Positions 35,312 to 43,104 of a stretch of 64,000 nt of DNA are shown here, piece by piece (the first letter of the stretch is position 1; every line of letters begins with the position of its first letter). A model generated the notes under the pieces. That model had not been told where the DNA came from. It saw nothing but the letters and a program-made list of their open reading frames with translations, and made no database searches. The position numbers and the translations under genes were made by a program. Source of the DNA: Falsirhodobacter halotolerans (lineage in GTDB: Bacteria > Pseudomonadota > Alphaproteobacteria > Rhodobacterales > Rhodobacteraceae); assembly GCF_022899245.1 (NCBI RefSeq), contig NZ_JALJAZ010000001.1, forward strand, positions 290,501-354,500, given 5' to 3'.

Positions 35312-35388
35312 GGACCCGTAGCTCAGCTGGATAGAGCATCAGACTACGAATCTGAGGGTCGGGCGTTCGAATCGCTCCGGGTTCACCA
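35312..35388 (+). tRNA. tRNA-Arg(ACG)
   Basis: 77 nt including encoded CCA. Acceptor GGACCCG/CGGGTTC, D arm with GCTCAGCTGGATAGAGC, anticodon stem TCAGA/TCTGA with loop CTACGAA giving anticodon ACG, and T arm GGGCG-TTCGAAT-CGCTC. The 3' end is the inferred prophage attachment site, because an integrase gene starts its 3' end 75 nt downstream. Confidence 0.97.
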
Positions 35389-35443
35389 TCAAATCCCCTG
35401 TAAAACTTAGCGTCTGATCGTCTATCACCCTGATGGGTCATTC

Positions 35444-35481
35444 GTCGGTTGCTTCGAGTTGTCTCAGGTCGGTTGCTTCGA
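35444..35481. repeat. 14-bp direct repeat at the left prophage end
   Basis: GTCGGTTGCTTCGA occurs at 35444-35457 and 35468-35481, 24 bp apart, between tRNA-Arg and the end of the integrase gene (second copy inside its last codons). Short direct repeats at this position are typical of integrase arm-binding sites; the role is inferred. Confidence 0.45.
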
Positions 35482-36651
35482 CGTTCTGGCGCGAAGCTCA
35501 ATGACCTTTCGGATCGTGCTGGACCGCTCGCGAACGTAGCGTTCCGTCGTCTTGAAATCGGCGTGGTTGGCCTGATGTTGAAGTTCCATCGGAGTCGCGC
35601 CAAGGGACCGTGCGTGGTTGATAGCACCGGCGCGCGTGTCGCGCATTTGCACCTCGTCTGGGACGCCCGCCGCCTTCGCGAATCGCCGCCATAGGGCCGC
35701 CCAGTAACGCTTTTCGAATGGCTTGCCGTCCGCCATCTTGATCACCGGACCGATACGCTGGTCCTGCGGGATTGCGGCAAGGCGAACGCGGATCTCCGGC
35801 ACGACGGGAAACTCCAACACCTCGACCAGGGAGGCTTCGGTCTTGCTGGGGGTCTTGCGGATGACCGATAGGTCCTTGTCCACCATGTCCCAAGTCAAGC
35901 CGTCTGCCCACCGGCGGTCCGCACCGGAGCCGAGCCATTGGCCGCGCACATCGACCGCGCGTAGGGTCAGCCACCACTGGAGCAGGATGCCCAGGGCGAA
36001 GGCTGATTGCCCCGCCTCGTCTGCCTTGGTGATGATAGCAGCGACCTGATCGCCCGAGGGGCTAACGGTTCTGGCCTTCGGTGCCTTGATCCGCATTTCG
36101 CCAAGAATGGCCTGCACCTCGCGTGCGTGGCGATCCTTGATGATGACCCCGTAGCTGGTGACGATCCGCAGCATCGTGAACATGCGCTTGATGTAGGCGA
36201 CGGAGCGGCCCTTGTCGGTCATGGCCTTCTGCCAGCGCTTCATCGCGATGTGGTCCGTCTCTGCAATCAGCGTCTTCCCGATCGCTTCCTCCCACCGGAC
36301 CAAGCTGAACAGATAGTCCGCACGTGTGTTTTCCTTCACCTCGCGGAACGGGGAGAACTCGTCGCTCTTGTATCGGCCGATCAGCCATTGCCAGGTGCCG
36401 GGTTCGACCAGCGCCTCGGAAGCGTTGAACCAGCGCAGCATTTCGCGTGTCAGGTCGCGCGACGTCTGGGCGCGGGCGGCGTCTTGGCCGTCATCGGCTT
36501 CGCCTGGGAGGCGGATGGGATTCTTGCTGTATCCGGCGGTCACATAGCGGGCCGGGGGGCGCCAGTAAAACCAGCGCTTTACCCGTCGCATGCAGGGGGC
36601 GTAGAGCGGATCGCTCCCGTCCCACAGCGCGGCCTTGAAAGGGTCAGAATG
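35464..36651 (-). CDS. int: phage tyrosine-recombinase integrase
   Basis: 395 residues if started at GTG 36651 (HSDPFKAALWDGSDP), with GGAAG 6 nt upstream; longer in-frame starts overlap the excisionase gene. Catalytic set read as R231, K270, then RDTR (337-340; a conserved His is replaced by Arg), H363 and Y372, with the normal 9-residue His-Tyr spacing. The N-terminal part is a SAM-like DNA-binding region. It lies beside tRNA-Arg, its presumed target. Confidence 0.9.
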   Translation of the reverse strand, partial: HSDPFKAALWDGSDPLYAPCMRRVKRWFYWRPPARYVTAGYSKNPIRLPGEADDGQDAARAQTSRDLTREMLRWFNASEALVEPGTWQWLIGRYKSDEFSPFREVKENTRADYLFSLVRWEEAIGKTLIAETDHIAMKRWQKAMTDKGRSVAYIKRMFTMLRIVTSYGVIIKDRHAREVQAILGEMRIKAPKARTVSPSGDQVAAIITKADEAGQSAFALGILLQWWLTLRAVDVRGQWLGSGADRRWADGLTWDMVDKDLSVIRKTPSKTEASLVEVLEFPVVPEIRVRLAAIPQDQRIGPVIKMADGKPFEKRYWAALWRRFAKAAGVPDEVQMRDTRAGAINHARSLGATPMELQHQANHADFKTTERYVRERSSTIRKVIELRARTSKQPT

Positions 36652-36913
36652 CACCGAGGTCTTCCTTCGATTGATCGCCCGCGGGAATGCGGGCTTCGAC
36701 ATGATCCGCGATCCGGCGGCGCCGGCCAAGCCACGCCTCCACGTCGGCCTTCATGGTGAGCCCGACGAGGCCGTCCTTCTTCGGAAAGCCGTCGCGTTCG
36801 AGTTCTGGCCGGTGCTTCTTGAACCAGTCCAGAGATTTGCCGAGCGTGATGGCGACCCAGCGGTCCGAGCCATAGGCGGCCTGTTCGTGAAAGGTGTGGT
36901 CGTGGACGCTCAT
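36644..36913 (-). CDS. excisionase-like small DNA-binding protein
   Basis: 89 residues from ATG 36913 (MSVHDHTFHEQ), chosen over ATG 36925 because GGAGGAG precedes it. A winged-helix/MerR-type pattern is visible: WVAITLGKSLDWFKKHRPELERDGFPKKDGLVGLTMKADVEAWL. Position immediately upstream of int and overlap with it fit an excisionase or recombination directionality factor. Confidence 0.65.
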   Translation of the reverse strand: MSVHDHTFHEQAAYGSDRWVAITLGKSLDWFKKHRPELERDGFPKKDGLVGLTMKADVEAWLGRRRRIADHVEARIPAGDQSKEDLGAF

Positions 36914-40138: not shown

Positions 40139-40342
40139 ATGAAAGTCACCCACGATCCCGACGCCCGCACCTTTACCATCACCGGCAAGGCATGGTGGGA
40201 TACATATCCGATCGAGGATCTGGGGAAGTGGCTGGCGTTCTATCGCATGCTACGCGACGAACACCCGAAGGCCCAAGGCGCATATGACGCGACTATCGCG
40301 GGGCTGGAGGGGTTGGCGAAAGAATTGGGCCTTCTGGCATGA
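40139..40342 (+). CDS. small protein of unknown function
   Basis: 67 residues (MKVTHDPDARTFTITGKAWWD ...). No domain recognised. Its stop codon abuts the hairpin that terminates the convergent leftward cassette. Confidence 0.55.
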   Translation: MKVTHDPDARTFTITGKAWWDTYPIEDLGKWLAFYRMLRDEHPKAQGAYDATIAGLEGLAKELGLLA

Positions 40343-40365
40343 AAAAGCCCGCCGGTGAAGGCGGG
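40342..40365 (-). terminator. intrinsic terminator of the leftward cargo cassette
   Basis: On the - strand CCCGCC-TTCACC-GGCGGG followed by CTTTTTC: 6-bp GC stem plus U5. It lies 36 nt after the stop of the small helical-protein gene and ends the repressor-cargo transcript before it meets the rightward gene. Confidence 0.7.
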
Positions 40366-40401
40366 ATATAAAGTTAGAGATAAAAAATATAAAATCGATA
40401 T

Positions 40402-40842
40402 CTATCTATTCTCTCGGCCGCACCTCTTGATCTCCCTTTCCAGTGAAAGAACCGACTGGCCTATAGCAGATAGTAATCTAGGTTCTGCTTCTCTGTCCGG
40501 CTCACCAAAGGTTCCCCCAGTAGCATAACTCATTAGATCGGAAATCTTTTGCGCTAATGAAACCGAAACTTTTGGATGAGACTCGAAGCGCTGGGCGATT
40601 AGATGACTGACGTGGTGCAATCGCATGGTGATACGAGCAGCATAAATTGTGTCGTGTTTTCCAAGGTCTGCCGCTGACGAATTCCAATAGCTGAACGCTT
40701 CTTCCAAGACAATGTCTAGATGCTCGCAGGCTTCATCTACCATTGCTTGGTTATTTGCACGAAAACGTATGCCCCGAGCAAACCATCCCTCAATAAAATT
40801 TTTGAGAAATGGTCCAGAAGCAGCGCCCAGCAGAGCGCTCAA
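40402..40842 (-). CDS. small helical protein of the GHKL/STAS cassette
   Basis: 146 residues from TTG 40842 (GGCGGGAATTC upstream); no ATG near the start fits. Sequence is strongly helical (ACEHLDIVLEEAFSYWNSSAADL, ARITMRLHHVSHLIAQRF, LSAIGQSVLSLEREIKRC), with an amphipathic N-terminus (LKNFIEGWFARGIRF). No family recognised. Base composition is clearly lower in GC than surrounding phage genes. It follows the STAS-like gene by 38 nt and is the last gene before the terminator; I infer it may be the output protein of the cassette. Confidence 0.6.
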   Translation of the reverse strand: MSALLGAASGPFLKNFIEGWFARGIRFRANNQAMVDEACEHLDIVLEEAFSYWNSSAADLGKHDTIYAARITMRLHHVSHLIAQRFESHPKVSVSLAQKISDLMSYATGGTFGEPDREAEPRLLSAIGQSVLSLEREIKRCGRENR

Positions 40843-40880
40843 GAATTCCCGCCAGGGAATATTATTAAAATCTTGTAAGG

Positions 40881-41201
40881 TCAGCGATCTCCAGCCTCAT
40901 CGATATATCGCCAAGCAGTTGCTATATATGGTGCATACGTGGGAGACAGACTTTCTAGCTTAAGATGGCGCTTTATGTCATTAATTGACAAGCCGCCCCG
41001 CACAAGTCCTCCAAATGCTTCTTCTACGAACGATGAAGGATAACCTGCAACACCATCGAATGTGACAACTATATCTTCACCGGCTCGAAGGGCTGGAAGT
41101 AAAAATACCTCTCGGAATTCTTCTCCACTGCCTGGTCCATGCTTCCTGTAACGGCCGCCGGGAAATCTAGTAAAGTCTTTGGCGATGCTTATCGTTTTCA
41201 T
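40881..41201 (-). CDS. STAS-like (DUF4325-type) protein
   Basis: 106 residues from ATG 41201 (MKTISIAKDFTRFPGGRY); ATG 41231 or TTG 41249 would add residues and overlap the ATPase gene. The pattern PGGRYRKHGPGSGEEFREVFLLPAL ... VVTFDGVAGYPSSFVEEAFGGLVR is that of DUF4325, a STAS-like domain usually found beside a GHKL ATPase. By analogy with SpoIIAA/SpoIIAB it may be a phosphorylatable or binding partner of the ATPase; the serines in YPSSF are at the expected place. Function inferred. Confidence 0.7.
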   Translation of the reverse strand: MKTISIAKDFTRFPGGRYRKHGPGSGEEFREVFLLPALRAGEDIVVTFDGVAGYPSSFVEEAFGGLVRGGLSINDIKRHLKLESLSPTYAPYIATAWRYIDEAGDR

Positions 41202-41208
41202 TGCTTTT

Positions 41209-42315
41209 TCAATCTCTAGCAAACGAAGCATAAGGTAGATTCCATTCAATCAACGTTCCGCCAGTATGAGAAGGCAAGTAAAACTTGCGACACTCCGTTT
41301 CCGTAAGCTCGACATCGCCTTTACCGCTAAGAACGCGCATGTAACCTCCTCTTGCGCTTCTTACAACATCCCTCATCTGATCAAGACCTTTACCGCGTTC
41401 ATCTAGCCCTGTCCTTGTCCGACCTATTTCAAAGGCAGCCTCTATGTCCTGCGCGTCAGACTTGGACGGTGATGAGCCTAGCTTGACAATCATCTCACTG
41501 ATCCTCCGACGCCAGCCCTCCTCGCGGTCAAGGGTGGCAGCGATCCCCACCCCTTGATCATACACGAAGAACCTTAAGCTTTTGCTGACAGGATCATAGC
41601 AACTGGTTGCCCACCAGCGGCTTCCTGCCGTTGGGTATGTCGACACAGTGTTTCCATCACGCATATCCCCACTGCGTGCCGCCGTGTCCACATAAGCATG
41701 CTCGATGCTATTTATTACCGCTTCAGTAAGCCCTTCGAATAAATACATCTTTGCTTCCAGGGCGGTGCCAAGCGCAAGCAGGTCATTTTGCAAAGCGTCC
41801 ATTGTCTCCGGCTGGCCTTTTACGCCGGACGCAAGGTTAAGAAGAACCAATTCATCCGCAAGGGTCGACTGCGTTGCAGGTACAGGGGACATGCCAAGCA
41901 GCTCGTATGTCCCTAGGGATCGCAGCACTCGCCGTACTCTTGGTTTCCATCGGTTACTCAGGCGCGCACGGATCTGAGTACCATAAAGTAACGACCATCT
42001 CTGTAACTCAGCCGAAAGGACGATGGCTGACGTAATTGAAAGGTCATCTATAGGCGAAAGATCAACAAATACCCTCGGCCATACCCATCTCCCGTGACGC
42101 TTTACCTTTCTTCTGTTCACGAAAGCTTCTCGCATTCGATGAAAAAATTGCAGTGTTGCAGCGGTGTTGTGCCTAAAGCTCAGCTTCGACGGGGGAATTA
42201 CGGTAGTTTCGGTATGCCGCTCACCAATTCCAGGTATGCGTCGCGACTTTTTTTGATAACCTGCTTTTTGCCATCGGCTAATCGTAAGCAGCCTGCTCCT
42301 AGATATCCGCTTCAT
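41209..42315 (-). CDS. GHKL-type ATPase with STAS-like N-terminal region
   Basis: 368 residues. Residues ~44-140 look STAS-like (RVFVDLSPIDDLSITSAIVLSAELQRW ... VRRVLRSLGTYELLG). The C-terminal half is a histidine-kinase-like ATPase: N box EGLTEAVINSIEHA (194-207), G1 YDQGVGIA (252-259), G2 GLDERGKGL (303-311) and GGTLIEW (352-358). There is no DHp/His phosphoacceptor, so it is a serine-kinase/anti-sigma-like or Hsp90-like ATPase, not a two-component kinase. Lower GC than neighbours. It lies 11 nt after the lipoprotein gene and just before the STAS-like gene. Confidence 0.75.
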   Translation of the reverse strand: MKRISRSRLLTISRWQKAGYQKKSRRIPGIGERHTETTVIPPSKLSFRHNTAATLQFFHRMREAFVNRRKVKRHGRWVWPRVFVDLSPIDDLSITSAIVLSAELQRWSLLYGTQIRARLSNRWKPRVRRVLRSLGTYELLGMSPVPATQSTLADELVLLNLASGVKGQPETMDALQNDLLALGTALEAKMYLFEGLTEAVINSIEHAYVDTAARSGDMRDGNTVSTYPTAGSRWWATSCYDPVSKSLRFFVYDQGVGIAATLDREEGWRRRISEMIVKLGSSPSKSDAQDIEAAFEIGRTRTGLDERGKGLDQMRDVVRSARGGYMRVLSGKGDVELTETECRKFYLPSHTGGTLIEWNLPYASFARD

Positions 42316-42326
42316 TCTTACATGAC

Positions 42327-42683
42327 CTATATCTCAGAACACGCTAGCTTTGCCGACAACTGCCTGTTCTCATTCTCAACCGTGGTGATTTCTACCGGGC
42401 ACCCCGAGACCTCGCGGATCGCCCGCAGGTTGCCTACGTAGACCTCGGCCTCCGTCGCCTCCCCGCCGAACAACGTCCGGTTCATCTGCGCTGTGTAGGT
42501 GTCGCCCGATCGGCGCACGGTGTGCTCGCGTCCGTCGATCGTGACGACCTGGCTGCCGGGCATGTAGGCGGCTGGGGTGCAGGCCGTCAGGGCTGCGCAG
42601 GCGAGGGCGGCAAAGGCGATGCGGTTGGCGGCAGTGCGGGTCAACACTGCCGGCCAATCCGGTGTTGACCGCTGCGCGACCAT
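42327..42683 (-). CDS. prophage lipoprotein
   Basis: 118 residues from ATG 42683 (AGGAT upstream). Hydrophobic segment RIAFAALACAALTAC ends in a lipobox LTAC (Cys35), followed by a ~80-residue exported domain. A start at the in-frame TTG 42644 would give a more usual signal length. Directly downstream of the repressor gene, same strand; phage lipoproteins in this position often act in superinfection exclusion. An 8-bp inverted repeat GTCAACAC/GTGTTGAC (42640-42669) overlaps its 5' part. Confidence 0.65.
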   Translation of the reverse strand: MVAQRSTPDWPAVLTRTAANRIAFAALACAALTACTPAAYMPGSQVVTIDGREHTVRRSGDTYTAQMNRTLFGGEATEAEVYVGNLRAIREVSGCPVEITTVENENRQLSAKLACSEI

Positions 42684-42768
42684 CCGCTTATCCTGTGAAC
42701 GGAAAGGGAACGGGTGGTGGGTGTGACGGAGGAAAATGTTAAGGGGTTTGTCGAGGTGCTGCGTTCGA

Positions 42769-43104
42769 TCACTGCGTTTCCCCCGGGGGCCGAGAGGGCT
42801 GGCCTCGTGCAGCGGCTCGCAACAACTCCCGCTCTCCTTCGGTCAATTCCTGCCACAGACGCGCGGCTTCGGATCGATCGGCCGAACTGTTATCCTGAAG
42901 CATCTCGTCCAGAGTAAAGCCAAAGGCATGAGCAACCTTCACGGCATCATCTACATTGGTCGACGCTTTCAATCCGGCGCGCGACCGTTGCATGAACTTT
43001 GTAATCTGGTCCTTAGACACTCCAGCGCGTTCCGCGAGGTGCGGAATAGACCACCCGGTGGCCTTCAGAGCTTCATCTAGGGCATCGAAAAACCGTCTAG
43101 TCAT
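42769..43104 (-). CDS. prophage repressor (CI-like, no peptidase domain)
   Basis: 111 residues from ATG 43104. An XRE-type helix-turn-helix occupies the N-terminal half (FFDALDEALKATGWSIPHLAERAGVSKDQITKFMQR), then NVDDAVKVAHAFGFTLDEML; the C-terminus is short (ARLWQELTEGERELL) with no S24 peptidase domain, so RecA-stimulated self-cleavage is not expected. Longer starts at 43161-43164 would place the operators inside the gene. Four operator copies flank the region. It is divergent from the cro-like gene. Confidence 0.8.
   Translation of the reverse strand: MTRRFFDALDEALKATGWSIPHLAERAGVSKDQITKFMQRSRAGLKASTNVDDAVKVAHAFGFTLDEMLQDNSSADRSEAARLWQELTEGERELLRAAARGQPSRPPGETQ

Follow-up and report, generated by a model that had tools for sequence, protein, structure and literature searches.

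Partner-switching kinases entered the field of bacterial immunity with VapKSC, in which a STAS-GHKL kinase (VapK) is accompanied by a STAS antitoxin (VapS) and a PIN toxin (VapC) (PMC13373217, EMBO J 2026). In that article, which is also our source on CapK-CapS, S48 of VapS is a conserved Ser/Thr position whose S48E exchange abolishes VapC binding and inhibition, and the system confers about 2-log protection against phage Bas42. The related CapK is activated by single-stranded DNA (ssDNA), and an ssDNA-binding aromatic residue, F54 in VapK and W68 in CapK, lies at the STAS-GHKL interface (PMC13373217). Here we describe a three-gene cassette, K-S-T, found in a 64,000-nucleotide (nt) stretch of Falsirhodobacter halotolerans DNA (contig NZ_JALJAZ010000001.1, positions 290,501 to 354,500, hereafter the window), and encoding a kinase-like protein (K), a DUF4325 STAS-like protein (S) and a third protein (T). 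The cassette sits in a prophage, directly behind the repressor region. Most likely it joins the logic of VapKSC to the position of the RexAB exclusion genes, with a membrane effector in place of the PIN toxin: it looks like an alarm that a dormant virus could use to shut down its host when another virus attacks.

As a system, this module has apparently not been described so far. No account of the kinase-DUF4325-third gene triad as a system is among the literature matches listed, from a coverage that leaves out most subscription papers, preprints and supplements. In Francisella phage KIRK, Fhv_0046-0048 lie behind CI and encode a protein of 293 amino acids (aa) resembling one from Marinobacter phage AS1, a DUF4325 protein and a transmembrane protein; by their table descriptions only they look like K-S-T, and in the accessible part of that article they are entered as separate hypothetical proteins and not treated as a system (PMC7924643). 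The window itself had been read before, from its letters and without database searches, and this original prediction proposed three low-GC genes behind the repressor as an immunity or host-regulation switch.

Conservation of the K-S-T cassette

K-S-T is a conserved, mobile three-gene cassette carried by prophages, plasmids and chromosomes. With K as a tblastn query, one phage (AS1) and four plasmids were found. Phage AS1, a Leptospira plasmid and a Vibrio plasmid hold three consecutive genes whose sizes match K, S and T; in an Acinetobacter plasmid the kinase is reduced to a fragment behind an insertion sequence element, and in a Novosphingobium plasmid an unannotated open reading frame (ORF) follows the DUF4325 gene. 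Viral contigs searched with K alone gave no relative. With a DUF4325 alignment, places were confirmed in genome contigs (284) and in viral contigs (208), two collections that overlap in part, and 80 places of each were kept for reading. Together with nine earlier loci and the window these make 170 loci (numbered with an L below), with one contig present twice (as L014 and L063) and other near-duplicates among them. A kinase lies directly upstream of 162 of their 174 DUF4325 ORFs, so that, by these places and this adjacency, the cassette is common. The other 12 have no kinase in the locus, in some cases because the contig begins there. Some ORF lies directly downstream of 169 of the 174, a few of them chance ORFs since any downstream ORF was counted, and both neighbours are present in 156 loci besides the window, giving 115 non-redundant triads.

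Entry through a kinase profile leads to the same arrangement. It matches 11 of 385 genomes, our own included; beyond the latter, eight loci hold all three genes, L177 ends just behind the kinase and L185 holds a weak fused protein. All eight readable relatives have, directly downstream of the kinase, a DUF4325 gene and then a third ORF with a hydrophobic N-terminal part, and seven of the eight are not in the query alignment (L175 comes from a query-alignment genome). The original prediction had named co-occurrence of the three genes as a check, and both routes bear it out. With a larger kinase alignment, a phylum-wide sample yields 16 of 398 genomes at E 1e-3; nine, counting our own, reach E 1e-20 or lower. 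Mirror-tree rank correlations, from crude, uncorrected identities, are 0.31-0.50 against permutation maxima of 0.09. In L012 and L013 the kinase frame is interrupted while the DUF4325 and third genes are still open, and Vibrio vulnificus (L216, 3016-3357) carries an orphan DUF4325 gene with no annotated kinase adjoining and an ImmA/IrrE peptidase gene near.

The kinase-STAS pair and its relatives

The GHKL part of K is firmly assigned. Among distinct kinases of 300-650 aa, truncated ones being left out, positions N202, D253, G255, G308, G310 and T354 are kept in 130/130 and E198 in 129/130. K has no Pfam (to E 1), NCBIfam or PADLOC match; in PHROGs it matches phrog_3364, a family of unknown function (E 1.4e-36). 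Its AlphaFold2 model has a predicted local distance difference test (pLDDT) score of 86.1 and was built on alignment A5, which joins the window protein to 51 of 98 candidate relatives. The top three Foldseek matches of this model are all SpoIIAB: 1til (E 1.9e-3, probability 1.00, template modelling (TM) score by target 0.66), then 1th8 and 1l0o, the three spanning E 1.9e-3 to 5.2e-3 and TM 0.62-0.66. A STAS-like N-terminal region of K, also part of the original prediction, agrees with the secondary structure of the model and with the alignment to VapK-like kinases, but no STAS structure is among the Foldseek matches listed. The N-terminus of the model is one helix and a loop, and a basic N-terminal tail is common in the family: the net charge over the first 36 residues is at least +5 in 107 of 115 kinases (window +9), while other K proteins from a DUF4325 survey have +2 (L197), -1 (L202) and 0 (L204). 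No helix-turn-helix (HTH) domain was found on K, with no Pfam family at E 1.

S matches PF14213 (E 1.5e-13), which agrees with the DUF4325 type first assigned to it, and probably begins at ATG 41201, near the start position of its relatives. DUF4325 is the sole Pfam domain in its 106-122 aa, and no winged HTH was found. The best Protein Data Bank (PDB) match of the DUF4325 profile is Escherichia VapS (9z7o, E 0.0024), followed by the STAS antagonist 3t6o (E 0.1). S48 of VapS aligns gap-free to Ser72, the first Ser of a SerSerPhe motif, a mapping that uses a tag offset of 18 deduced from a 134-residue chain ending at residue 116. The two serines are residues 72/73 in the 122-aa numbering and 56/57 in the 106-aa numbering. 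Of 174 relatives, 154 carry S or T at position 72 and the remaining 20 carry A, P or V; position 73 is Ser in 174/174, but the genome search pattern demanded that Ser. By eye, both are Ser in the eight kinase-entry loci. We therefore name the SerSer motif, rather than one residue, as the likely phosphoacceptor.

How does this pair compare with those already described? Homology gives good support to the kinase-substrate part, and K and S are very probably a kinase-substrate pair with VapKSC logic. The order kinase, STAS, third gene is common to both systems (PMC13373217), S is related to VapS and has Ser at the S48-equivalent site, and VapK-like survey kinases match the window-family kinase profile (in a four-sequence search, L194, L197, L202 and L204 do so at E 1e-13 to 8e-11). 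The kinases of the window family differ in their basic N-terminal tail, the charge there being +2 in the VapK-like L197. Contrary to the PIN nuclease of VapKSC, the third gene here encodes a four-helix protein, membrane-anchored in most relatives, and membership of VapKSC is therefore rejected. CapK-CapS shares the logic of a STAS-GHKL kinase and a STAS substrate, but K has no HTH found and S no winged helix, and the third gene belongs to the cassette instead of to an immune operon under a repressor (PMC13373217).

The partner switching invoked in the original prediction holds as far as the SpoIIAB-like predicted fold and the VapS-like substrate go. Both SpoIIAB-SpoIIAA-sigma F and RsbW-RsbV-sigma B share the kinase fold and a STAS substrate with Ser at a place that we take to be equivalent in SpoIIAA, RsbV and S. 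A sigma-factor switch as such is rejected, since no sigma factor was found in the cassette; its output would be a membrane-associated protein. As for RexAB of lambda and Pseudomonas putida, the likeness lies in the place behind the prophage repressor on the same strand and in the combination of a sensor with a membrane partner, whereas a kinase and a STAS protein stand in place of RexA (PMC12894663). Family scans detected no relationship to RexA or RexB, and K, S and T have no match in the PADLOC release used, whose coverage of RexAB is unconfirmed.

The third protein and the proposed switch

T is probably longer than the 146 residues first given: CTG 40884 has a 4-nt overlap (CTGA) with the DUF4325 stop, and the residues thereby added at the N-terminus of the 160-aa form resemble, by eye, the in-frame N-terminus of L018, which is also without ATG, GTG or TTG there. 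Its helical nature was correctly seen, and the family also has an N-terminal membrane segment that had not been. The model (pLDDT 93.3), built on alignment A4 from the window protein and 51 of 113 candidate relatives, shows a four-helix bundle in which residues 11 to 67 form the first helix. T has no Pfam match above the cut-off, PIN included, and none in PADLOC, PHROGs or NCBIfam; a PEPCK_ATP match of 13.8 bits (cut-off 26.5) was set aside. The best PDB matches of the model are generic four-helix bundles. One viral structure lies below 1e-3, the unnamed A0A3G2YTK2, whose 159 aa equal the phage AS1 third protein, a likeness by length alone. Histidine phosphotransfer by T was dropped as a role because no column is invariant across the 52 aligned sequences, and an enzymatic role was set aside with no fold or family match.

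Conservation of T is low but real, window T finding 23 of 156 third proteins (E 2.6e-19 for the best to 1.1e-3 for the worst). A hydrophobic N-terminal segment is present in 140/156 (17-residue mean at least 1.4, in-frame upstream codons included), the remaining 16 having means of 0.65 to 1.39. In a second test, 112 of 136 non-redundant third proteins pass a 19-residue hydrophobicity threshold of 1.3. Among these 112, K/R is commoner after than before the segment in 107 (mean 3.20 vs 0.42 per 12 residues), and a second segment occurs in 11. By the positive-inside rule, a lone membrane segment that is followed by basic residues fits a single-pass N-terminal anchor and a cytoplasmic four-helix bundle in most relatives.

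The following scheme can be proposed, in which we infer the signal, the phosphorylation, S-T binding, membrane damage, the anti-phage effect and expression in the lysogen. The lysogen would keep the three-part phospho-switch expressed, and in the resting cell S would bind the cytoplasmic four-helix domain of membrane-associated T, which would stay quiet. Infection or DNA damage would activate K, perhaps via nucleic acid on the basic N-terminal tail, in the STAS-GHKL groove, or both. Active K would then phosphorylate the SerSer motif, phosphorylated S would release T, and freed T would act at the inner membrane through oligomerisation, leak or depolarisation, so that growth would stop and the foreign infection be aborted. 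To this whole chain, from infection-sensing K to abortive infection, we give a probability of roughly 0.5. Taken singly, the membrane effector role of T is a rather probable element, and anti-phage abortive infection may well be the main benefit.

Several points weigh against it. The SpoIIAB E-values of the K model all miss 1e-3, lying just above. The 20 relatives with A, P or V at Ser72 include 15 whose kinases were checked and have intact core motifs, so that Ser73 could be the acceptor, or the acceptor could vary. The hydrophobic segment of window T is weak (17-residue Kyte-Doolittle value 1.14), and as no solved structure matches the T model at E 1e-3 or below, the effector role of T is argued from its place in the operon. 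No repressor was found among the tested genes in 20 of 32 viral contigs. Among the direct neighbours, any one PADLOC family occurs at most twice in the 96 downstream proteins and once in the 85 upstream ones, and matches are isolated (restriction-modification, MADS and AriA models); with no background control, no claim of defence-island enrichment is made. For the K-S-T family as a whole, defence, kinase activity and toxicity are inferred properties.

The same data can be read in other ways. T might be the sensor, a membrane four-helix receptor controlling K and S with an unlinked host target as output, the whole being an envelope-stress regulator on mobile elements. Its single membrane segment and a weak structural likeness to the PcaY_PP ligand-binding domain (TM 0.53, E 0.05) would suit such a role; four-helix sensor domains of that kind, however, are normally periplasmic, between two membrane helices, whereas the basic residues behind the one segment put the T bundle in the cytoplasm, and T holds the toxin's place of VapKSC-type operons. 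We therefore regard this as unlikely. Plasmid carriage suggests instead a toxin-antitoxin-like addiction module that stabilises mobile elements, with phage defence at most secondary, all the more as some copies lie beside type II toxin-antitoxin-like genes (RelE/ParE with NadS, MazF with MazE, a nucleotidyltransferase with a HepT-like gene). A dedicated kinase with complete core motifs speaks for regulated triggering, not simple antitoxin decay, and makes this quite unlikely. The same plasmid copies mean that a phage-specific role is not general, which renders improbable a prophage-autonomous regulator, reading host DNA damage and tuning lysogeny or induction with no regard to foreign phage, even though ssDNA activates CapK (PMC13373217) and part of the relatives lie behind a repressor.

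If the preferred scheme of an infection-sensing K-S-T switch is true, the kinase-STAS immunity switches reported in June 2026 gain a membrane branch, and DUF4325 and PHROG 3364 a likely role; the sensing of infection by repressor-linked prophage genes also becomes testable through a defined candidate serine motif. The pair also occurs with other outputs. A PF14213 survey gave 31 places in 29 of 398 genomes, sorted by our own reading into nine kinase-S-third cassettes like that of the window (itself counted; the L205 kinase is short and weakly matched), one kinase-S with no third ORF seen, three other kinase-S pairs, two kinase-S-PIN loci (L193 and L197, where a DTN motif identified the PIN gene by eye), five single proteins with both kinase and DUF4325 matches, five stand-alone DUF4325 proteins and six single proteins with no kinase-profile match. 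L199, L201, L207 and L209 are natural kinase-DUF4325 single chains. These PIN-linked, fused and other arrangements indicate that the kinase-S switch is modular. We suggest, tentatively and at a little under even odds, a superfamily of K-S-X alarms in which one kinase-STAS switch has a repressor (CapKS), a PIN RNase (VapKSC) or a membrane protein as output, the membrane branch being a Rex-like abortive infection in which STAS serine phosphorylation gates membrane damage. The six single proteins without kinase match (L188, L190, L191, L198, L200, L203; about 334-352 aa) have a C-terminal DUF4325 with the SerSer motif absent by eye, and are possibly a distinct single-chain family.

Prophage setting and genomic neighbours

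The three ORFs are found on the minus strand in the order K, S, T and in the repressor direction, as had been stated, and the low guanine-cytosine (GC) content also stands (0.51 at 40-42 kb vs 0.59-0.68 per kb in 30-40 kb and 44-64 kb). The closing terminator is less clear: its stem-loop has -12.2 kcal/mol and z -2.47, but terminator-like matches in the region do not exceed shuffles (3 found vs 3.9 expected).

Features of the cassette and its surroundings in the window
Feature	Position	Strand	Remarks
STAS-GHKL kinase-like gene (K)	41209..42315	-	368 aa; basic N-terminal tail, STAS-like domain, GHKL/RsbW-type ATPase domain
DUF4325 STAS-like gene (S)	40881..41201	-	106 aa from ATG 41201; 122 aa if TTG 41249
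Third gene (T)	40402..40884	-	160 aa, probable CTG start; 146 aa from TTG 40842; four-helix bundle, hydrophobic N-terminal helix
Probable intrinsic terminator, operon end	40348..40365	-	stem-loop and T-run
HTH gene, probably prophage repressor	42769..43104	-	upstream of the cassette, same strand
Small lipoprotein-like gene	42327..42683	-	between repressor and K; possibly co-transcribed
Phage integrase, probable prophage left end	35464..36729	-	PF00589, E 1.9e-4, below Pfam's cut-off; beside tRNA-Arg
tRNA-Arg(acg)	35312-35388		adjoins integrase

Prophage genes of the host region comprise, besides the integrase, NinB, terminase, portal, HK97-type capsid and tape measure, the integrase and tape-measure matches falling below Pfam's cut-off. 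The tRNA-Arg(acg)/integrase junction (35312-36729) is the probable left attachment site. Spacing makes a single transcription unit of repressor, lipoprotein-like gene and K-S-T plausible, the gap between the second of these and K being 11 nt. The lipoprotein-like gene matches no family clearly and may be an exclusion gene in its own right.

The rexAB-like place assigned by the original prediction is seen in the window and recurs in part of the relatives only. In 32 of the 80 viral loci (non-redundant kinases, at least 2.2 kb either side), the commonest families among 64 upstream proteins are repressors (phrog_4 in 14, phrog_8 in 11) and, among 64 downstream proteins, integrases (phrog_1 in 4, phrog_216 in 3); no repressor is among the 25 of 52 downstream families listed. 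Gene by gene, with simple longest-ORF calls and second genes tested in part, the nearest same-strand upstream gene is a repressor in 10/24 (E 1e-8) and the next-nearest a repressor or regulator in 2/6 tested, which makes at least 12 of the 32 contigs. Two viral contigs without repressor, L112 and L152, carry tail genes at the second position upstream, which may mark another insertion site of the cassette.

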